Of a DNA stretch of 37,294 bases, positions 2,369 through 33,450 are shown in pieces. The position numbers and the translations under genes are program-made. Every line of letters begins with the position of its first letter. The stretch's first letter is position 1. The stretch is from Spirochaetota bacterium (GTDB lineage: Bacteria > Spirochaetota > UBA12135 > COTS27 > JAFLEE01), in contig JAFLEE010000053.1 in the NCBI GenBank assembly GCA_017302015.1, positions 1-37,294 on the forward strand. Reading direction: 5' to 3'. A model generated the notes under the pieces. It saw only the letters and a program-made list of their open reading frames with translations. It had not been told where the DNA came from and ran no database searches.

Positions 2369-2397
2369 AAGCCCGGCTGATGCCGGGCTTTTTTTTT
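2369..2397. terminator. Bidirectional intrinsic terminator
   Basis: A perfect 9-bp stem (AAGCCCGGC at 2369-2377 with GCCGGGCTT at 2382-2390) and a 4-nt loop TGAT. It is followed by a T-run to 2397 and preceded by an A-run from 2362. The hairpin can therefore end transcription of rpsR rightward and of the ECF sigma operon leftward, whose last gene stops at 2414. Confidence 0.92.
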
Positions 2398-2413
2398 CCG
2401 CAGCGGCCCGGGC

Positions 2414-2710
2414 CTAATCGGTGTCTTCGTCTTTCTGCAGCTGGACGTCGCTGAAGGAGGGGGCCACGCTCGTGATGCCCGAGACGTAGGCGTCGAGTTG
2501 GTCGGGCGGCAGGAAGGAACCCTTGGCCCGGTGGGGGAGGAGCAGGAAGGTCGCCACCAAGGCGGCGGCCACGAGCCCCCCGACCCAGGTGGATCGGAAG
2601 ATCCAGGTGCGCGTGCGCTCTTCGGAGGCGAGGCGGTCCTGGAATTGGAGTTTCTCGAGGGGTACGCGGTGGAAGAGGGCATCGATGGGATCGCGGTCGT
2701 GGTGTTTCAT
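2414..2710 (-). CDS. Small single-pass membrane protein, possible anti-sigma factor
   Basis: A 98-residue protein starting MKHHDRDPIDALFHRVPLEK. It has a charged N-terminal region of about 40 residues, one transmembrane helix (about residues 43-61, GGLVAAALVATFLLL) and a short C-terminal part. Its ATG overlaps the TGA of the upstream sigma gene by 4 bp (2707-2710), so translation is probably coupled and stoichiometry fixed. Position directly after an ECF sigma gene and the N-in, one-TM layout are those of many anti-sigma factors, but the cytoplasmic part is short and no zinc-binding anti-sigma motif is visible. The anti-sigma role is inferred from context only. It stops at TAG 17 nt from the shared terminator. 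Confidence 0.8.
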   Translation of the reverse strand: MKHHDRDPIDALFHRVPLEKLQFQDRLASEERTRTWIFRSTWVGGLVAAALVATFLLLPHRAKGSFLPPDQLDAYVSGITSVAPSFSDVQLQKDEDTD

Positions 2711-3228
2711 TGGGGGGCCTCCTCGCCTCGGCGGAACTGGTCGTTGCCAAGGACGGCGGAGAGCCGCTCCCGGGCTTGGTGGATGCGCGATTTGACCGTG
2801 CCTTCGGGGATGCCGAGGACCTTGGCGATCTCGGCGTAGGAACGGTCGTGGTAATAGTAGAGCAGCAGCGGTTCCCGGTGACGGGGGCGCAACTGGGCCA
2901 GGGCCTTCGAGAGGGTCTGGGCATCGTCGGCGCGGTCGCTGGAAGGCGAGGGCTCGTGGGGCTCGGCGGGGTGCTGGCGCTCGAGCTGCTCGCGGAAGCG
3001 CCGCTCGCGGATCTCGCGGCGGGTGAACTCGCGGCACACGTTCCGCGCGACTCCCCAGAGGTAGGTGGTCTCGGAGGATTCCCCGCGGTAATGGGAAGCG
3101 GACTGGGACAGGCGCAAAAAAACCTCTTGGACGACGTCGTCGGCCCATCGGCTATTCCCGAGGAGGATGCACGCGCTCTTGCGCACGAAGAGGCGGTGGC
3201 GCGAGTACCAATCGGCCCACTGGTCCAT
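2707..3228 (-). CDS. ECF-type RNA polymerase sigma factor
   Basis: A 173-residue sigma-70-family protein with the two-domain ECF layout. Region 2 shows DDVVQEVFLRLSQS and ETTYLWGVARNVCREFTRRE, the core-binding and -10-recognition parts. Region 4 shows LRPRHREPLLLYYYHDRSYA followed by the helix-turn-helix EIAKVLGIPEGTVKSRIHQA. ATG 3228 gives the normal family length; an upstream in-frame extension to 3339 would run into the coding sequence of the preceding gene. It lies 8 nt after the LTxxQ gene and overlaps the small membrane protein by 4 bp. Likely role: envelope-stress transcription, inferred from both neighbours. Confidence 0.93.
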   Translation of the reverse strand: MDQWADWYSRHRLFVRKSACILLGNSRWADDVVQEVFLRLSQSASHYRGESSETTYLWGVARNVCREFTRREIRERRFREQLERQHPAEPHEPSPSSDRADDAQTLSKALAQLRPRHREPLLLYYYHDRSYAEIAKVLGIPEGTVKSRIHQARERLSAVLGNDQFRRGEEAPQ

Positions 3229-21030: not shown

Positions 21031-21990
21031 ATGCGCCTCCTTAACCTCCTGCTCCTCCCCGCCGCCCTCGCGCTCCCGATCGGGGCCCAGACGGCGCGGA
21101 TCCTCTTCGACGGCTCCATGACGGGGCACCTCCTGGGCTGCTATTGCACTTCGGCGCCCAAGTCGGGCCTCATCAAACGGGCGACGTTCATTCACGAATA
21201 CCGCAAGGAGCATCCCGGCGAGGTCCTCGTGGTTTCCTCGGGCGACCTGCTCGAGTTCGGGGTCGACGAAAAATTCGCCAAAGGCATGCTCGAAGCGGTG
21301 GCTTCCGTGGGCTACGATGCCATTGCCCTGGGCGACCAGGAATTCCTCGCCGGCGATTCGTTCACCGAGAAGATGGCCAAGCGCCTGCCGCTCCTGTCGG
21401 CCAACCTCTCCGTCGACGGCTGGCTCTCCGACACGCGCTTCGCCCCGTCGGTCGTGAAGACCGCCGGGGGGCTTCGGGTGGCCTTCATCGCCGTGACGGG
21501 CACCAACGTGTTCCGTTTCTTCCCGGACAAGAAACTCCGCGAGAAACTCGTGCTCACCGACACCGTGGCCGCGATCAAGGGGGAACTGAAGGCCCTCGCC
21601 GGCAAAGCCGACGCCTTCGTCGCGATCACCCACGAGGGGCTCGACGCCGATGCGGTCCTCGCACGCGCCCTCGAAGGCTCCGGGGTGAGCCTGATCCTCG
21701 GCGGCCATAGCCAGGATCTCACGACCAAGCCCTTCACGGCGGGGGGCATCACCATCCTCCACGGCGGCCCCTCCGCCAATTGGCAGGTCGAGGTCCCCCT
21801 TTCCCTCGACAAGGGGAAGGTGAAGGTGGGCGCGGCGAAGTTCCACTTCTTCAAGTACGCCAGCCCCGATCGTCCCGTGCCCCTGAAGGCCATCCTCGGA
21901 GACGAGCCCTGGTCCTATAAATACGTCATCCATGAGAATACCGCCGATGATCCCGCGGTCGCGCGGATCGTGAAGGAATTGGGGCAGTGA
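21031..21990 (+). CDS. Secreted metallophosphatase/5'-nucleotidase-like protein
   Basis: A 319-residue exported protein with signal peptide RLLNLLLLPAALALPIGAQ. The calcineurin-like phosphoesterase order is visible: FDGSMTGHLLGCYC, VVSSGDLLEFG, ALGDQEFLAGD, a LSANLSVDGW region, AITHEGLDADA and LGGHSQDL. The usual first motif DxH reads DGS, and the Asn of GNH reads Asp (GDQ), so metal binding may be altered. A CxC pair (GCYC, about residues 36-38) resembles proteins of this family with the gCgC motif. It lacks the C-terminal 5'-nucleotidase domain and has the size of a catalytic domain only. Its TGA overlaps the next GTG by 4 bp. Confidence 0.8.
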   Translation: MRLLNLLLLPAALALPIGAQTARILFDGSMTGHLLGCYCTSAPKSGLIKRATFIHEYRKEHPGEVLVVSSGDLLEFGVDEKFAKGMLEAVASVGYDAIALGDQEFLAGDSFTEKMAKRLPLLSANLSVDGWLSDTRFAPSVVKTAGGLRVAFIAVTGTNVFRFFPDKKLREKLVLTDTVAAIKGELKALAGKADAFVAITHEGLDADAVLARALEGSGVSLILGGHSQDLTTKPFTAGGITILHGGPSANWQVEVPLSLDKGKVKVGAAKFHFFKYASPDRPVPLKAILGDEPWSYKYVIHENTADDPAVARIVKELGQ

Positions 21991-23498
21991 TCCGCCTCTT
22001 CCCCAAGATCCACGACAAGTTCCAAGTCGAACTCAAACTCGAATACCTCCCCGGGGGCCGTCCGGCCCGCTATAAGGTCCGGTCCTGGCTCTTCGTCCCC
22101 CAGCAATTGGGGGTGTCTCCCCGCACCTACGCGCGGGAGGATTGGTATCGCGACGCGCGCAGTTTCCTCCGCTACAAGACGCCGTGCGAAGCGCTCCCCG
22201 AACTCGCCGATTTCTCGGCCACGGCGTGCAAACGGCTGCAAGAGAAGGTCCAGGCCGCGGTCCGGGGCGGCGGGGCCCCGGCTGCGGTCGAACTCCGCAG
22301 GGAAGTGCGTCTCTTCGGGTGCGTGGTGAAAGCCGCGCTTCGGGATGCGGCCTACGCCTGGCGGAAGGAGCGGGGCTCGAAAGAGGCCCTCGAGTTGATG
22401 CGGGAGGGGGCCCGGCTGCTGAAGCGCTACCGGGATTTGGTGCGCCCCCTGGGAGCGGGGAAGGTCCCCGCCGAGGCCCGCGAGGCTTGCCGCATCATCG
22501 ACACCTTCCTCTCCGGGCTCCTGGAACAGCACGCCCTCGAACTCCTCGAAGACGCGGAAGAGAGCGCGAAAAGCCAGAAACGGGGGTCGAAGCAGGGGAA
22601 GAAGGAGCGCGTACGCGTGCGCCGCCTGGCGCGCTTCGTGCTCGCCCTGGTGACGACCGAGGCCCAAAGGCGCCAGAAGAGCGACCTGCTGCGCTCGGGG
22701 CGCGATGGGTGGGACCCCGGCCGCCTCGAACGGCGCAGCGTGCTCAAGAAATTCGCCGAGAGCATCCTCTACCTGCCCGTGGTGCTCCGGCAGGACGGAG
22801 CGCTCAAGGAGCAATTGTGGTTCGCCGTGGCGGCGGGCGTGGCCATGGCCTTCGCCACCCTGGCGGCCGTGTGGGTCAATTTCAACCCGGGGCAGATGAC
22901 CCTCCCGGCGCTCTTCGTCGTCATCGTTTCCTACATGTTCAAGGACCGGATCAAGGATTGGCTGCGCGCCTGGTTCGCCACCCGCCAACGCCGACGCGGC
23001 TTCGATTACATCCGCGAGGTGCGCGACGAATCGGGGGAGACCGTGGCGACGGTGCATGAGAAGGCCTGGTGGCTGGCCTCCATGGACGAAGTGCCCGAAC
23101 CCGTTCGGCGGGAACGCGGCCAGGATCCCGACGGCCGCCTGGAAGGCTCCGGCCTCGAGGAGCGCGTGCTCGGTTCCCAACGCGAGATCGCGGTGGATGG
23201 CGCCCGTCTGGGGAAGGCCTCCCACCGCCTCCCGGTGCTCGGTCTCACCGAGATCTTCCGCCTCCACATCCGTTCTTTCACCCGGGGGACCGACGATCCG
23301 GCCAAACGCCTATGGATCCTCGACCGTGAGGGCCGTCCCCGCCACCGAAAGGTCCTGCGCCTCTATTCGCTCCATTGGATCCTGGAGCTCGAGGGACCCG
23401 ACGGCCTCACGCGCCGTGCCTTCCGGTTGGGGTTCAACCGCAAGGGCCTCAAGTACGTGGTCTCCCTCCCGGACCACGTGCCCCTCGCCCGGGCGTAA
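21987..23498 (+). CDS. Unrecognised membrane protein with hairpin TM pair
   Basis: I do not recognise this 503-residue protein. The N-terminal 265 residues are charged and helical. Two adjacent hydrophobic segments lie at about 276-297 (LWFAVAAGVAMAFATLAAVW) and 302-317 (MTLPALFVVIVSYMF), an inner-membrane hairpin with both ends probably cytoplasmic. The C-terminal 185 residues have beta content with short charged turns (KRLWILDREGRPRHRKVLRL; ILELEGPDGLTRRAFRLGFN). GTG 21987 overlaps the preceding stop by 4 bp, so it is coupled to the phosphatase. It converges on the MBL-fold gene with a 3-nt gap. Function unknown. Confidence 0.85.
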   Translation: MIRLFPKIHDKFQVELKLEYLPGGRPARYKVRSWLFVPQQLGVSPRTYAREDWYRDARSFLRYKTPCEALPELADFSATACKRLQEKVQAAVRGGGAPAAVELRREVRLFGCVVKAALRDAAYAWRKERGSKEALELMREGARLLKRYRDLVRPLGAGKVPAEAREACRIIDTFLSGLLEQHALELLEDAEESAKSQKRGSKQGKKERVRVRRLARFVLALVTTEAQRRQKSDLLRSGRDGWDPGRLERRSVLKKFAESILYLPVVLRQDGALKEQLWFAVAAGVAMAFATLAAVWVNFNPGQMTLPALFVVIVSYMFKDRIKDWLRAWFATRQRRRGFDYIREVRDESGETVATVHEKAWWLASMDEVPEPVRRERGQDPDGRLEGSGLEERVLGSQREIAVDGARLGKASHRLPVLGLTEIFRLHIRSFTRGTDDPAKRLWILDREGRPRHRKVLRLYSLHWILELEGPDGLTRRAFRLGFNRKGLKYVVSLPDHVPLARA

Positions 23499-25400: not shown

Positions 25401-26660
25401 TTAAAGCCCGAGGGTTTTCCGTTCCGGAGGGGGGAGTTGGTCGCGCCGGGAGCGCACCAGGGCCCCGTTGAGTTCGTAGGCGGTCCGCAGCCATTCCAGG
25501 CGCCGAAAGGGGGCCTCCACGGGACGTTCGGCGAGCAGGCGGAGATAGAGTTCGGCGGGATCGCCGTTGGTGCGGTAGGTCACGGTGATCACATCGCGAC
25601 CGGGGATGAGGACATCCGGGCGCACGAGCGCCGCTTGGTTGTCGTACCAAAGGAAGATCCACAACCGCGCATCGCCGTAATATCTTGCTGAAAGGGAGGC
25701 GAGCGTATCGCCGTAGCGCACCGCCACCGGGAGGGATGGGCGCACCGGGCCGGGGGAGGTGAGATAGACATCGGTGAAGCGGACGGGTTCGCTTCGGCGC
25801 TTGTAGGGAAGCACCACGAAGACGATGAGCAGGACGGCGATGAGGATCCCGACGAAAACCCCTTCGAGGATGGGCCGGGCCCGCAGGGTGAAGGTGCTTG
25901 GGGCATCCGAGGCCTCGGTTGAATCGGCGACCGTGGCCGCGGGCCCTTCCACATCCCTCGGAGGTGGCGCCGGATCGGGCACCGCAGACGGCGGAGGTTC
26001 GACCGGCCCTGCCGGTGGAATCGAGCCCACCCGCTCGGACGGCGGTTCAATCGGGTCGGGGGCGTGGTCGGTCGCAGGGATATGATCGTCCGGGATCGCA
26101 ACTTTTGGGGGGGGAACTACCACCTCTTTGATCGAAAGGGGCGTTTCGCTTTCTTCGGCCGCCGGGAGCACCGTCGGGGCGGGCAAGGCTTCTGGGAGAT
26201 TGGAGAGGATGGCGTCTTGGGTCTGGTCGAGTCGAGTGAGTTCGGAGGCCTTCTGGGGCTCTTCCTTTTCGAAGACGATGGTGGGCGGAGGTGGGAATAC
26301 AGGGATCGAATCGTCGCTCTCATCCGCGGGGGCCGGGGATTCGCCCGCGGGCGCTCCTTGAACGGGGAGCGCGAATTTGGCGGTGAGCACGCGGCTCAGA
26401 TCGGAGGTCTCGGAAAAGCGCAGGGTGAATCGGGCCGGGACGCGCACGGTCTCGCCGGTGCGCGGATTGCGCACCTCGTAGGGTTCCCGCCGCTTCAATT
26501 TGAGGGTTCCCAGGCCGGGCAGGGTCTGGGTATGCTCGATCAGGAGGGCTTCGCGGATGCTCTCGAACCAGGAGAGGATGGCACGGCGGGCCTCCTCGGG
26601 GTCGATCTGGCTGGCGGCGGCGGCGCGTTCGACGAGTTCTTCAAAACGGGCGACGGACAT
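25401..26660 (-). CDS. HU-domain protein with TM helix and LysM-like domain
   Basis: A 419-residue multidomain protein. Residues 1-95 resemble an HU/IHF DNA-binding domain (FEELVERAAAASQID; HTQTLPGLGTLKL; the arm segment NPRTGETVRVPARFTL). Residues 96-260 are a Pro/Glu/Ala-rich disordered linker. One hydrophobic helix follows at 267-285 (GVFVGILIAVLLIVFVVLP). Residues 311-360 match LysM (VAVRYGDTLASLSARYYGDA, then PDVLIPGRDVITV). A C-terminal region of about 60 residues ends the protein. ATG 26660 lies 4 nt after the small HU gene with no Shine-Dalgarno, suggesting reinitiation. Topology is uncertain: the flank after the helix (YKRR) is basic, which argues against placing the LysM end outside. 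Function not known to me. Confidence 0.85.
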   Translation of the reverse strand: MSVARFEELVERAAAASQIDPEEARRAILSWFESIREALLIEHTQTLPGLGTLKLKRREPYEVRNPRTGETVRVPARFTLRFSETSDLSRVLTAKFALPVQGAPAGESPAPADESDDSIPVFPPPPTIVFEKEEPQKASELTRLDQTQDAILSNLPEALPAPTVLPAAEESETPLSIKEVVVPPPKVAIPDDHIPATDHAPDPIEPPSERVGSIPPAGPVEPPPSAVPDPAPPPRDVEGPAATVADSTEASDAPSTFTLRARPILEGVFVGILIAVLLIVFVVLPYKRRSEPVRFTDVYLTSPGPVRPSLPVAVRYGDTLASLSARYYGDARLWIFLWYDNQAALVRPDVLIPGRDVITVTYRTNGDPAELYLRLLAERPVEAPFRRLEWLRTAYELNGALVRSRRDQLPPPERKTLGL

Positions 26661-26664
26661 GGGT

Positions 26665-26955
26665 TTAGGGGTTGGGCGCGAGGGTTTCGAGGCGCGTGCC
26701 GAGTTCGCGGTGGGGTTCGAAGGCAAGGCGCTTACGCGCGGGCACCGTCAGCGCCTCGGCGTGCCCGGGGGGCTTGACCCGGCGTTCGCCCTGGTCGACG
26801 AGGTGGAAACGCCCGAAATCGGGGATTTCCACGTCGCGGTCGTTCTGGAGCTCTTGGGAGAGGCCCTCGAGGAAGGCATCGAGGCAAGCCTTGATCTGGC
26901 TTTGGGGAAGCCCGGCTTCCCGGGCCAGGTCACGGACCAAATCGCGCTGGTGCAT
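26665..26955 (-). CDS. Small HU-family DNA-binding protein
   Basis: A 96-residue HU/IHF-like protein: MHQRDLVRDLAREAGLPQSQ (helix 1), IKACLDAFLEGLSQEL, then VEIPDFGRFHLVDQGER (the HU beta turn, usually GFGxFxV) and VPARKRLAFEPHRELGTRLE. The arm tip lacks the RNP signature typical of HU, having KPPGHAE in its place, so DNA bending may differ. The start at ATG 26955 is preferred over an in-frame GTG at 26973, which precedes the -10. It heads the operon and is followed by the HU-TM-LysM gene after 9 nt including the stop. Confidence 0.85.
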   Translation of the reverse strand: MHQRDLVRDLAREAGLPQSQIKACLDAFLEGLSQELQNDRDVEIPDFGRFHLVDQGERRVKPPGHAEALTVPARKRLAFEPHRELGTRLETLAPNP

Positions 26956-26963
26956 GGTCCCCA

Positions 26964-26992
26964 AGGGTACCACCCGTTCCCCGCGGGGTCAA
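26964..26992 (-). promoter_or_regulatory. Promoter of the HU-ribBA operon
   Basis: On the minus strand TTGACC (26987-26992), a 17-bp spacer and TACCCT (26964-26969). The -10 ends 8 nt before ATG 26955, so the transcript should start at or next to the start codon. The divergent -35 begins 5 bp away at 26998. Confidence 0.5.
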
Positions 26993-27036: not shown

Positions 27037-29037
27037 ATGGGCAAACGAAGCCTCCCGCCCGCCAAGCCCTGCCCCGAACGGCTTATTTTCACTTGGGAGA
27101 CCACCGCCAACGATGGCTCGGTGCGGGCCCTGAAGCGGCAGGGGGAAGGGGTACGCGTCCTCCCCGGGCGCGAGTTCTCGGCGCAGAAGTTCTCCCCCTT
27201 GGGGAACGTGCTTTTGGTGCACCGCCGCCGCCTCGAGGGCCTGCGCCAACGCCACGGCAAACTCCTGCGCCATCCCCTCGTGCGCGTCCTGCTGTGCGCC
27301 CCGCGGCGCGAACTCCGGGTGCCCCCCTCGGGCGTCTTCGACATCCTCGACGATCCGCCCGAGAGCGCCGACTTGACCCTCTCCCTCCACCGCGCCTTCG
27401 ACGACTTGGCGAAGACCCGTGAACTCCTCGAGGCCCGGCGCCTTCTGTCGGCCCAAGAAGAGACGATCCGCAAGATCCTCGCCATCGGCGCCCGGCTCTC
27501 CCAGGAGCGCGACATCGAGACGCTCCTGTCGGCCATCCTCGACGAGGCCATCGCCCTCTCCAACGCGGATTCCGGATCCATCGCCGTGCTCGGCCTCGAC
27601 ACCGACCTGCGCAAGACCCCCGAGGCCGCCGGCAAGCTCACCTTCTTCCTCTCCCATAACCATTCGGTGAAGATCGACTTCGTGCGCAGCAGCATGGAGG
27701 TCAGCAACCGCAGCCTCGCGGGCTTCACCGTGCTCAAGAAGCGGTGCCTCAACATCCCCGACGCCTACGAGATCGATCCCGAGGCCCCCTACCAGTTCCA
27801 CCGGGCCTTCGACCAGAAGCACGGGTTCCGCTCGAAGAGCATGCTGCTGGTGCCCATGGTGAACGCCCAGGGCGAGGTGCTCGGCGTGATCTCGCTGCTC
27901 AACAAGAAGGAGCGGGCCTCGAAGAAGATCGATTACGTGCGTTTCAAGCCCGAGCAGGTGCTCCCCTTCACCGAGGAGGACGAGCGCAGCCTCGCCAGCC
28001 TGGGCAGCCAGGCCACGGTGGCCCTCGAGAACGCCCTCCTCTACCGCGATATCGAGAACCTCTTCGAGCAGTTCGTGCACGCCTCGGTGTCCGCGATCGA
28101 AGCGCGCGATCCCAGCACCTCGGGCCACACCTTCCGGGTCACCGATTATTCGCTGCGCCTCGCCCAGGCGGTCAATAGCGAGCGCCACCCCAAATTGCGG
28201 GTGCGCTTCACCCCCGCGGAGATCAAGGAACTGCGCTACGCGTGCCTCCTCCACGATTTCGGGAAGGTGGCCGTGCGCGAGGCCGTGCTCCTGAAGGCGA
28301 AGAAGCTCGAGCCCGACCGGCTCCTGGCCGTGGTCTCCCGCTTCGAACTGCGCAAGGCGCGCGTGCTCCTCGACGCGGAGGCGCGGGTGCGCGCCCTCTG
28401 GGAGGACCGCGCCCTCGAAGACGCCTCGCGCGCCAAGCGCATCGAAGCCGCGCGGCGGGAGGCGGCCGAAGCCCTCGCCGGCGTCAATAGCGAGCGCGAC
28501 CTCATGCTCTCGGCCAACGAACCCTCCCTCCTGACCGAGGAGAAATCCCACCTCCTCAACGGGCTGCGCGACCGGGTGTACCCCCTCCCCGAGGGGGGCG
28601 AATTGCCCCTGCTCGACCCCGCCGAACTCGCGGCCCTCTCGGTGCCCAAGGGCAGCCTCACCCTCGAGGAGCGGCGCGAAATCGAGAGCCACGTCACCCA
28701 CACCTATAAATTCCTCAAAGCCATCCCGTGGACGAAGAACCTGGCCCGGGTGCCCGAGATCGCCTACGGCCACCACGAGAAGATGGACGGAACGGGCCAT
28801 CCCGTAGGCCTGACGGCCCGCGACCTCCTGCCCCAGGCCCGCATCATGGCCATCTGCGATATCTTCGACGCCCTGACCGCCGCCGACCGCTCCTATAAGA
28901 AGGCCATCCCACTGCCCGATGCCCTCAAGATCATCGAGGACGAGGTCGAACGGGGGAAACTCGACCCGGTCCTCCACGAGATATTCCTCAAACACCGCAT
29001 CTGGGAAGATCCCCGGGAGACCCATCCCTCCGGTTGA
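27037..29037 (+). CDS. GAF and HD-GYP-type phosphohydrolase
   Basis: A 666-residue signalling protein. Residues 1-110 are an unclassified alpha/beta region with some resemblance to a receiver fold (LIFTWETTANDGSVRALKRQ). A GAF domain spans about 140-335 (DIETLLSAILDEAIALSNAD; SMLLVPMVNAQGEVLGVISL). The HD domain has CLLHDFGKVAVREAV at about 403-417, then an insertion of about 110 residues with coiled-coil character, and finally AYGHHEKMDGTGHPVGL at about 576. The GYP motif reads GHP. Members with GYP degrade c-di-GMP; this variation makes activity probable but unproven. ATG 27037 was chosen because the ATG at 27025 lies inside the -10. Confidence 0.88.
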   Translation: MGKRSLPPAKPCPERLIFTWETTANDGSVRALKRQGEGVRVLPGREFSAQKFSPLGNVLLVHRRRLEGLRQRHGKLLRHPLVRVLLCAPRRELRVPPSGVFDILDDPPESADLTLSLHRAFDDLAKTRELLEARRLLSAQEETIRKILAIGARLSQERDIETLLSAILDEAIALSNADSGSIAVLGLDTDLRKTPEAAGKLTFFLSHNHSVKIDFVRSSMEVSNRSLAGFTVLKKRCLNIPDAYEIDPEAPYQFHRAFDQKHGFRSKSMLLVPMVNAQGEVLGVISLLNKKERASKKIDYVRFKPEQVLPFTEEDERSLASLGSQATVALENALLYRDIENLFEQFVHASVSAIEARDPSTSGHTFRVTDYSLRLAQAVNSERHPKLRVRFTPAEIKELRYACLLHDFGKVAVREAVLLKAKKLEPDRLLAVVSRFELRKARVLLDAEARVRALWEDRALEDASRAKRIEAARREAAEALAGVNSERDLMLSANEPSLLTEEKSHLLNGLRDRVYPLPEGGELPLLDPAELAALSVPKGSLTLEERREIESHVTHTYKFLKAIPWTKNLARVPEIAYGHHEKMDGTGHPVGLTARDLLPQARIMAICDIFDALTAADRSYKKAIPLPDALKIIEDEVERGKLDPVLHEIFLKHRIWEDPRETHPSG

Positions 29038-29084
29038 ACGCGCTGGACGACGGGAGTGGGCGCCACGGGGCCGCCCTTCCCCCC

Positions 29085-29093
29085 TGTTAAAAT
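29085..29093 (+). promoter_or_regulatory. Extended -10 element upstream of the P83/100 gene
   Basis: TG-T-TAAAAT (29085-29093) is an extended -10; no -35 is seen at 17 bp. The predicted start is near 29100, with a leader of about 37 nt to TTG 29137. Confidence 0.4.
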
Positions 29094-29136
29094 TGCGACC
29101 TTTTCGTCCGACAATCCAAGTTGGGATGTGACCGCC

Positions 29137-30690
29137 TTGAAATTTCCGCTCGTGTGCTGCGCTTTTTTGGTCCTCGCCGCCCTCGGCGCCGAGGTCCGCC
29201 TGAACGAGGCCGAATTGGCCGGGATGACCAATGCCATCAAGTTCCGTTCCTGGCAGGGGCCCAACGGGAAAGTGAACCCCGAAGACCTCATCATCGGGGT
29301 CGGCGAGCGGATGGCCAACGAGATGGTCCGCAAGGGCAGCGGCGGCTGGAAAGAGGGCTATTATTTCCGCCGCGTCCCCCCCGAACCCGCGAAGATGGGG
29401 GCCGATCTCTTCTTCTTGGGCCCCGAAAGCGAGATCAACCACGTCATCAACCTCTCCCGCATGCTCCAGGGCTACCTGAAGGCCGTGCACGGGTTCACGC
29501 GCCTGCGCGCCGAGGCCGTGGCCCATTTCCTCCTGGTTTACAACGCGGTGAAGCGCAACGACCGGCCCTACCTGCAGGGCCGCTTCGCCCCCGCCGTGGA
29601 CGCGGCCATCCCGGAGGGGAAACTCGGCATCGATACCGACTACACGAATTGGCCGGGGAAGACGGTGCTGGTCATCCCCACCCTGGGCGGTCCCGGCGCG
29701 GCCCTCTCCGCCGCCGAGGTCGGGCGCATCGCCACCGAGCGCGTGGCGGAAACCCCCGGGGCCACGAATCTGCGGAAAGAATTCCTCGATCTCCGAAAGG
29801 AGCAGGTCGCCACCGGCTCCTCCAACCTCGCCGCCGCCCAGGAGGCCCTCAAGAAGAAGGACCAGGACCTGGAGAAGAAGGAGATGGCGGCCCTCACGCG
29901 CGCCCAGGCCGCCGTCTACCCCGTGGAGCAGCAGCGCGCCCGGGAGGAGCAGATCCGCCTCGGGGAAGAGCGCCGGGAACTCGAGAAGCAGCAGAAGCAG
30001 GCCGACCGGCAGAGCGTGGCCGTGGCCGAGGAGCGCGCCGCCATCCGCAACGAAGAGACGCGCCTCACCAATATCCTTCCCGCGCCCGCGACGAACCGGG
30101 CCGCGGAGGGCGGGCCCTCCGCCGGAGAGGTGGCCAGCCGCATGCCGACGCGGGCGACGAGCCCCGGGGACGGCCTCCCCAACGCCCTCAACCAGGGCGA
30201 GGTCTTCTTCCTGAAGACCCTCGGCATCCAAGACGGCCACCTCCTCCAGCAACTCCTGCTCATCAACCCCAATAACGATTCCATGCGCATCGCACCCCTC
30301 GGCGGCATCAGCGGCAACCATTTCCAATTCGTCGAGGGAGACCCGATCCTGGTGGTCGCCGGGGACGGCGGCAAGCAGGTGCTCGCCCGCATCGACCGCA
30401 AGGAACTCACCATCAAGGCCAAGAGCACGGAGAACGTGTTCCACTCCACCAAGATCTGGAGCCAGGAAGGTGCCCTCTACGCGGTGGGCGAGAACGCCGG
30501 GCAAACCTACCTCTGCCGGTTCAGCACCAATCTGGTGCTCCAGGCCCGCAGCGATACCGTGGTTTTCCCCGATACCCAACTCGCCTTCGCGGTGGGCAAG
30601 GTCTATTGCACCGTCCTCCAGGGGAACCAGAACTCCCACGTCATCATCTTCGGGGCCTCGAACTTAAACCGCCTCATGGTGCTGAGGTGA
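29137..30690 (+). CDS. P83/100-family antigen
   Basis: A 517-residue exported protein similar to the spirochaete P83/100 family. The signal peptide is KFPLVCCAFLVLAALGAEV. The N-terminal domain (to about 195) ends with DTDYTNWPGKTVLVIPTLGG, close to the characteristic WPGKTQIVIP segment. A long Lys/Glu/Gln coiled coil spans about 215-315 (KEFLDLRKEQVATG; LEKQQKQADRQSVAVAEERA). A proline/alanine hinge follows, then a C-terminal beta-propeller-like domain (about 355-517; KIWSQEGALYAVGENAGQTY). The start is TTG 29137; GTG 29128 in frame would add three residues. Its function in spirochaetes is not established. Two small genes follow at once. Confidence 0.85.
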   Translation: MKFPLVCCAFLVLAALGAEVRLNEAELAGMTNAIKFRSWQGPNGKVNPEDLIIGVGERMANEMVRKGSGGWKEGYYFRRVPPEPAKMGADLFFLGPESEINHVINLSRMLQGYLKAVHGFTRLRAEAVAHFLLVYNAVKRNDRPYLQGRFAPAVDAAIPEGKLGIDTDYTNWPGKTVLVIPTLGGPGAALSAAEVGRIATERVAETPGATNLRKEFLDLRKEQVATGSSNLAAAQEALKKKDQDLEKKEMAALTRAQAAVYPVEQQRAREEQIRLGEERRELEKQQKQADRQSVAVAEERAAIRNEETRLTNILPAPATNRAAEGGPSAGEVASRMPTRATSPGDGLPNALNQGEVFFLKTLGIQDGHLLQQLLLINPNNDSMRIAPLGGISGNHFQFVEGDPILVVAGDGGKQVLARIDRKELTIKAKSTENVFHSTKIWSQEGALYAVGENAGQTYLCRFSTNLVLQARSDTVVFPDTQLAFAVGKVYCTVLQGNQNSHVIIFGASNLNRLMVLR

Positions 30691-32001: not shown

Positions 32002-32358
32002 ATGCCTCGTGCCAAATCAAGCGTTCCCAAGAAGGCGCGCCACAAGAAAGTCCTCGCGAAAGCCAAGGGCTATCGCGGCAAGCGCAGCAAATGGTTCACC
32101 ATCGCCAACCAGAGCGTGGTGAAGAGCGGCGCCTTCGCCTTCGCCGGACGCAAGAAGAAGAAAGCCGAATACCGCCAGATCTGGCACGTGCGCATCGGAG
32201 CCGGGCTCGAGGGCACCGGGCTCGCCTATTCGCGCTTCATGGCGGGCCTCAAGAAGGCCGGCATCGCGCTCGACCGCAAGATCCTCGCGCTGCTCGCCGC
32301 CGAAGACCCCGCGACCTTCAAGAAGCTCGCCGAAGCCGCCCAGAGCAAGGCCGCCTGA
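32002..32358 (+). CDS. rplT: 50S ribosomal protein L20
   Basis: A 118-residue protein needed for early 50S assembly, and in some bacteria a repressor of its own operon. The sequence is typical: MPRAKSSVPKKARHKKVLAK, then AKGYRGKRSKWFTIANQSVV (the usual Arg-rich helix), YRQIWHVRIGAGLEGTGLAY and KKAGIALDRKILALLAAEDP. It follows rpmI by 11 nt with a GGAG Shine-Dalgarno. The operon terminator is 23 nt downstream of its stop. Confidence 0.98.
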   Translation: MPRAKSSVPKKARHKKVLAKAKGYRGKRSKWFTIANQSVVKSGAFAFAGRKKKKAEYRQIWHVRIGAGLEGTGLAYSRFMAGLKKAGIALDRKILALLAAEDPATFKKLAEAAQSKAA

Positions 32359-32367
32359 CCCGATCGG

Positions 32368-33450
32368 ATGGAAGTTCCAGACCGGCCGCGTCGCCTTGCC
32401 AGGCGGTGGCGGCCGGTTTTCTTTTTGGGGCTCCTGGCCGCGGGCGGGCTGCAGGCGTTCCCCGGCTACCTGAACACGCGCAGCACCGAGTTCTACCCCC
32501 GCGGGCGGGTGGGGCTCTCCGTCGGCCTCGAACGCTTCGAGGACCGCGGCCCCTACGGCACCTGGCCCCTGGTGTTCTCGGCGGTGCCCGTCAGCATCGC
32601 CACGGCGCTGGCGCGCAACGTGCAACTCGGCCTCACCCTGCCGTTCGTCTGGGTCGAGAACCTCGCCCGGCCCGACCGCAGCCTCGCCCTGGTGGCCGGC
32701 GACATGGTCCTCGACATGGAGTTCGGGCACGACGAGCCCGAGTACGACTACCGGGAAGCTTTCACTTTCCGGGTGCGCATCCCCGACACCAGCCCCCCCA
32801 TCGACCGCAACCGCCGCCTGTCCACGCTGGAACGCGATTACGCGGAGGGCTCCACGGTGCGCGATTATTACCCCCTGACGCTCCACCACCAGGAGATGGC
32901 GCTGGGGTGGAATTTTTCCAAGCAACTCGGCGAAAAGACGTGGCTGCACTTCAACGCGCGCTACGTCTACGAGTTCGGCACCAACGAGAGCCTGACGAAC
33001 ATGTTCGCCCTGCAGGGCGCCCTGGTCTCCACCAATGACATCAGCACCATCACCAATGCCGAGGCCCTCGCCGGCACCACCTTCTCCCTCTTCGGCATCG
33101 AGAAGATCTGGGAGCGTTTCTTCGGCTGGACCGGCCGGGTCGATCCCTGGGCCGACAAGGCCAACGACCGGGTGGAATTGTCCCTCGGCGTTGACACCAC
33201 GCTCGACCTGGGATACCATGTTTCGGGCCGGAAGATCCCCTTCGCCATCCAGCCGTTCGCCGAGCTGTTCCTCTCGAAGCGCTTCACCGAGGAGAGCCTG
33301 GCCAAATCCCATCTCGACCTGTCCGCCGGGGCGGCCTTCCACCTCCCCGCGCACCTGCGCCTGCAGTTCGCCTTCACGCGCGTGCTCTGGGCCGACGCGC
33401 GCTTCGACTACCAGGACGCCCTGCGCATGAATCTGACCATCCTCCTGTAG
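32368..33450 (+). CDS. Outer-membrane beta-barrel protein of unknown function
   Basis: A 360-residue exported protein with an Arg-rich n-region and hydrophobic core (RRWRPVFFLGLLAAGGLQAF), then about 330 residues of alternating strands with aromatic girdles (LHFNARYVYEFGTNESL; LRLQFAFTRVLWADARFDYQ) ending in LRMNLTILL. This is consistent with a mid-size barrel; no specific family is recognised. It starts only 9 nt after the rplT stop. A complete intrinsic terminator (32381-32426) lies within its signal-peptide codons, so expression by readthrough from the ribosomal operon would be limited. ATG 32368 is needed to supply the basic n-region. Confidence 0.82.
   Translation: MEVPDRPRRLARRWRPVFFLGLLAAGGLQAFPGYLNTRSTEFYPRGRVGLSVGLERFEDRGPYGTWPLVFSAVPVSIATALARNVQLGLTLPFVWVENLARPDRSLALVAGDMVLDMEFGHDEPEYDYREAFTFRVRIPDTSPPIDRNRRLSTLERDYAEGSTVRDYYPLTLHHQEMALGWNFSKQLGEKTWLHFNARYVYEFGTNESLTNMFALQGALVSTNDISTITNAEALAGTTFSLFGIEKIWERFFGWTGRVDPWADKANDRVELSLGVDTTLDLGYHVSGRKIPFAIQPFAELFLSKRFTEESLAKSHLDLSAGAAFHLPAHLRLQFAFTRVLWADARFDYQDALRMNLTILL
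32381..32426 (+). terminator. Intrinsic terminator inside signal-peptide codons
   Basis: ACCGGCCGC (32381-32389) pairs with GCGGCCGGT (32409-32417); an inner CGCC/GGCG stem (32392-32395 with 32402-32405) caps the hairpin. The tract TTTTCTTTTT (32417-32426) follows. It ends the infC-rpmI-rplT transcript but lies in frame inside the next ORF, where the T-run encodes Val-Phe-Phe-Leu. Confidence 0.85.

Follow-up and report, generated by a model that had tools for sequence, protein, structure and literature searches.

A two-gene cassette from spirochaetes encoding a putative HU/IHF-like heterodimer with one membrane-anchored, LysM-bearing subunit

The stretch of spirochaete DNA analysed here (37,294 nucleotides; hereafter the window) contains two adjoining genes whose products appear to be partner subunits of a specialised heterodimer of the HU/IHF type. 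On balance, judging from sequence comparison and structure prediction, we slightly favour the view that this heterodimer ties the chromosome to peptidoglycan by means of its one membrane-anchored subunit. The small subunit would be soluble. In the large one, the HU domain would continue into a long, flexible linker, a single helix in the inner membrane, and a LysM domain in the periplasm. On the cytoplasmic side, the two β-arms of the HU pair would grip and bend DNA; outside, the LysM domain would hold peptidoglycan, and the chromosome would thereby be linked to the envelope. The domains and their order, the gene pairing, and the intact arms of the window pair are seen in sequence or model, and from these we infer dimerization, DNA binding, membrane orientation, peptidoglycan binding, and tethering. 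The initial annotation recognized only the large subunit, for which it gave the correct gene boundaries, and overlooked both the adjoining HU gene and a helical region C-terminal to the LysM domain (Table 1). Because the partner gene proved to be conserved, the proposed mechanism shifts from that of a lone HU fusion to that of a probable HU heterodimer with one subunit anchored.

Table 1. Features of the HU cassette, in positions of the window.
Feature	Positions	Strand	Remarks
Large subunit (HU, linker, TM helix, LysM, C-terminal helices)	25401..26660	(-)	419 aa; translation from ATG at 26660
HU domain, residues 8-90	26391..26639	(-)	PF00216 E 8.5e-15; PDB matches HU/IHF
HU β-arm, large subunit	26418..26501	(-)	28 residues, net charge +6; RNPRTGE with P63-equivalent proline; aligned to E. 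coli HU-β
Pro/Glu-rich linker, residues 96-263	25872..26375	(-)	Predicted disordered; pLDDT mostly <60
Transmembrane helix, residues 267-286	25803..25862	(-)	Mean Kyte-Doolittle 3.1; predicted helix 264-288
LysM-like domain, residues 309-361	25578..25736	(-)	Relatives-only HMM 38.1 bits; LysM fold, closest Kbp LysM
C-terminal helical region, residues 368-417	25410..25559	(-)	Common to TM-LysM relatives
Small subunit (stand-alone HU-like protein)	26665..26955	(-)	96 aa; PF00216 E 2e-17; alternative GTG start possible at 26973

Domain architecture of the two proteins

The N-terminal region of the large subunit matches PF00216 (Bac_DNA_binding) with 55.2 bits against a cut-off of 22.4, and its top PDB matches are HU and IHF proteins. 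In the AlphaFold model, which was calculated from 15 sequences, residues 10–90 adopt the HU topology with a pLDDT of approximately 90. The HU domain claimed earlier for this terminus is thus borne out, as are the Pro/Glu-rich linker, which AlphaFold predicts to be disordered, and the lone hydrophobic helix. The model also places helices after the LysM domain.

The LysM domain is less readily recognized. The window large subunit taken by itself gives no match to Pfam LysM (PF01476) at E ≤ 1, well short of the gathering score, and an E value of 0.029 with NCBIfam LysM; of the two HMM searches that had been proposed as a check, the one for Bac_DNA_binding therefore succeeded and the one for LysM, run on this protein alone against Pfam, did not. 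A model built from relatives, with the window protein and its class-mate left out, nonetheless scores 38.1 bits at residues 313–357, compared with 7.4 bits for the best of 2,000 shuffled versions of the last 132 residues. The Pfam LysM cut-off is passed by four relatives that have this architecture (L084, L083, L036, and L087). Structure prediction, also proposed as a check, yielded both an HU and a LysM fold: the β-α-α-β arrangement of the latter comprises strands at residues 310–313 and 356–359 and helices at 320–328 and 331–340, with pLDDT values of 78–88. Among solved LysM domains, that of E. coli Kbp is the closest both by sequence (E 0.0037) and by structure (Z 9.2–10.4), and the LysM of a Thermus thermophilus NlpC/P60 protein gives Z 7.5. 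By profile and model, the earlier assignment stands, and the domain is a divergent LysM.

The small subunit scores 63.6 bits against PF00216 (cut-off 22.4), and its predicted structure is an HU fold with a pLDDT of 83.9. Its gene stops 4 nt before the ATG of the large subunit; ribBA and a metallo-hydrolase gene are the next ones on this strand. As only two other HU genes are present in the genome, the adjacency of two HU genes in the window is unlikely to have arisen by chance; those two could serve the housekeeping functions. Divergently upstream of the cassette, positions 27301–29037 (+) encode a GAF and HD-type phosphodiesterase-like protein, the HD region of which matches two Pfam models. 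Positions 29056–30690 (+) encode a protein of the Borrelia P83/100 family (PF05262, E 6.7e-45), which speaks for placing the window in Spirochaetota; the organism is a spirochaete from a sparsely sampled class. Two further long reading frames, at 21987–23498 (+), with a hydrophobic stretch mid-frame, and at 32017–33354 (-), a candidate frame, lack a Pfam match at E ≤ 0.001.

Conservation and distribution of the gene pair

Upstream DNA could be read for 31 cassettes, and in every one of them a small HU gene immediately precedes the large-subunit gene in the same orientation. This set comprises 21 cassettes from the genomes of the phylum search (the window included) and 10 from named records, after removal of four duplicate contigs; one further locus (L103) was left out, where a small HU gene stands beside a 127-aa HU reading frame and the rest of the large subunit is absent. 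The two HU genes overlap by 1–14 nt in 28 of these cassettes, the exceptions being the window (+4 nt), genome G004 (+12), and locus L095 (+616). In L095 (positions 2380–3005), the sole cassette with a large gap, the gap consists of repeated sequence. The flanking genes, read by eye, vary by lineage—for example, a ketol-acid reductoisomerase-like gene, RbsD-like and ligase-like genes, adenylate-cyclase-like and argS-like genes, or a branching-enzyme-like gene—so that the pair of small and large HU genes itself constitutes the conserved unit. A mobile-element origin was considered and dropped, as the neighbouring genes look like housekeeping genes.

The HU tree resolves 17 cassettes, with one clade for their small HUs (support 97/96) and a second for their large HUs (91/83); sequences from the window, G003, G005, G014/G026, G004/G045 copy 2, and G159 sit on long unresolved branches. 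In the better-resolved lineages, the separation of the two clades suggests two subunits of an HU/IHF-like heterodimer, whereas the placement of the window pair weighs against this reading. Genome G159 has no separate small HU gene; its TM-LysM protein (L087:3619-5022 (-)) instead carries one clear HU domain, together with a second stretch that resembles HU weakly (i-E 2.9e-5). Such a double-HU protein is what would be expected if the two subunits had become fused, and from its sequence we consider it a probable fusion. The HU domain of L087 is armless, and its second HU-like stretch probably is as well.

Genes for HU-TM-LysM proteins were detected in ten family-level groups of Spirochaetota (f1, which includes the window, f3, f4, f5, f14, f17, f20, f23, f43, and f55), as well as in named Treponema and Spirochaetaceae records. 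The two-gene unit could be read directly in at least eight of these groups, namely all but f3, where the contig ends, and f43, in which the HUs appear to be fused. No copy was detectable in the majority of genomes from the phylum, although the counts are lower bounds, at most four candidates having been scored per genome. This patchy distribution indicates that the cassette is not essential in the phylum. A scan of genome contigs with the window protein as a single sequence found no relative, because the protein is divergent and its class comprises only four genomes; the DNA-pattern scan used an alignment of five members. Within the window's class, G003 contains the full HU-TM-LysM architecture at a contig end, plus a TM-LysM protein devoid of HU. 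Linker lengths among the relatives are lineage-specific.

The same anatomy—a DNA-binding domain inside, one helix, and a sensing domain outside—would also suit a membrane-bound regulator, in which the LysM domain and C-terminal helices monitor the condition of the wall while selected promoters are bent by the HU pair, in the manner of a one-component membrane transcription factor. Patchy occurrence and lineage-specific linker lengths fit such an accessory role. However, HU-type domains usually bind DNA with little sequence preference, and no conserved neighbouring gene presents itself as a possible target; we thus regard regulation as an unlikely function, and a link between chromosome and wall as the preferred reading.

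DNA-binding arms and membrane orientation

When aligned to E. coli HU-β, nearly all members possess a 28-residue arm. Both arms of the window pair have this length and the DNA-intercalating proline, with net charges of +3 in the small subunit and +6 in the large, and many small-subunit arms elsewhere are very basic (+7 to +10). The window pair is accordingly likely to bind DNA, a property that is not constant across the family. The arm is shortened or lost in both subunits of G004 and of G045 copy 2 and in the small subunits of G014 and G026, and the intercalating proline is replaced in the large subunits of G014, G026, G190, and G198. DNA bending has thus not been kept family-wide. (A 28-residue arm that the alignment assigned to G159 was disregarded as an artefact, the first HU of that protein being armless.) Genome G045 combines one armed cassette with an armless one (L123, on contig C87). 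Gene pair and LysM domain are kept in the cassettes with arm loss, which are L123 (G045), L085/L036 (G004), L121 (G014), and L122 (G026).

Across the phylum, a broader scenario is conceivable, to which we lend a little less than even credence: scattered spirochaetes may possess a dedicated, split HU heterodimer, one subunit of which passes through the inner membrane and grips peptidoglycan, and some lineages may have lost the DNA arms and repurposed the pair. Taken further, arm loss could mean that the HU pair is an envelope scaffold, a mere dimerisation or protein-binding module that leaves DNA unbound, as proposed for CCDC81-type HU domains. The armless subunits listed above and weak matches to HU-CCDC81 models are in keeping with a scaffold, but complete, basic arms that include the intercalating proline are retained in the window pair and in most members, and the high positive charge of many small-subunit arms points the same way. 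A scaffold therefore seems doubtful, and slightly more so than a regulator; a DNA-gripping heterodimer continues to be preferred.

With a single hydrophobic span, the HU and LysM domains must lie on opposite sides of the membrane. The initial annotation had cautioned that basic residues after the helix do not favour an external C-terminus. As far as charge is concerned, this caveat was fair: Lys and Arg are more numerous C-terminal to the helix in 22 of the 33 members and N-terminal to it in 10, with equal numbers in one; these counts lend no support to an internal HU, nor do they settle the topology. Signal peptides on related LysM modules, read by eye, weigh against the caveat. L120 carries this LysM domain and the C-terminal helices behind a Sec-type signal peptide, and L106, L109, and L112, which share the LysM subtype, have lipobox signal peptides at their N-termini; these modules favour a cytoplasmic HU and a periplasmic LysM. 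The subtype (DARLWPxIYxANKDQIKDPDLIFPGQ) also recurs at the C-terminus of long helical lipoproteins in several families of the phylum (L106, L108-L110, and L112-L117). The reverse orientation, with HU outside and LysM acting in the cytoplasm like that of cytoplasmic Kbp, would accommodate the charge bias and the closeness to the Kbp LysM, but it is very improbable, since a 260-residue N-terminal region would have to be exported without a signal peptide, which would be exceptional, related LysM modules sit in secreted or lipidated proteins, and the BON domain of Kbp is absent here. For peptidoglycan binding, a precedent is provided by BB0323, a LysM lipoprotein of the spirochaete Borrelia reported to bind peptidoglycan (PMC6275353). 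Against a tether stands the closest LysM itself, which belongs to a K+-binding rather than a wall-binding protein.

Significance and comparison with known systems

Few direct physical links between nucleoid and cell wall have been demonstrated for bacteria, and little is understood of the way in which spirochaetes, with their great length and thinness, hold their DNA and divide it among daughter cells. If the proposed tether is real, a small system of two genes, combining an HU heterodimer with LysM across the membrane, would open the question of nucleoid–wall links to simple biochemistry. Some lineages have lost the DNA arms step by step, which offers a natural experiment on a histone-like fold leaving DNA. 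More practically, genes that resemble those of plain "HU family DNA-binding proteins" can encode membrane proteins.

Both window proteins contain domains of the HU/IHF family (PF00216), which includes the heterodimeric IHF α/β and HU α/β, and share with it the HU fold, the presence of two different subunits, the arm length, and RNPxTG-type arm tips; here, however, one subunit is fused to a linker, a membrane helix, and LysM. Neither window protein reaches the NCBIfam equivalog cut-offs for IHF and HU. Kbp (YgaU) of E. coli, although the source of the closest solved LysM, is a soluble K+-binding protein in which LysM is paired with a BON domain; membership in this family was rejected, as the window protein gave no BON match and has a membrane helix. 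Spirochaete TM-LysM, secreted LysM, and lipoprotein-LysM proteins (for example, L038, L118, L120, and L106; compare Borrelia BB0323) have the same LysM subtype, and several share the C-terminal helices; no HU domain was found in the proteins of these types. The literature searched, which included few subscription journals, contained no description of an HU-LysM fusion, and one may be listed elsewhere.

A further parallel comes from Bacteroidetes, from which Burroughs and colleagues (Cell Cycle, 2017) reportedly described HU-CCDC81_bac proteins that possess a SPOR domain and a membrane helix and are predicted to function in chromosome partition. Like the spirochaete cassette, these proteins combine HU with a single membrane helix and a domain that binds peptidoglycan. 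Membership in the HU-CCDC81 group was nevertheless rejected, the PF18175 score being 19.4 bits against a cut-off of 35, with the same outcome in the genome search, and no SPOR match was obtained at E ≤ 1 in the window protein, the wall domain of which is LysM. The Bacteroidetes HU-TM-SPOR protein would nonetheless be the nearest known design: there, two HU domains share one chain with SPOR, whereas here the HUs are divided between two genes and the putative hold on the wall falls to LysM.
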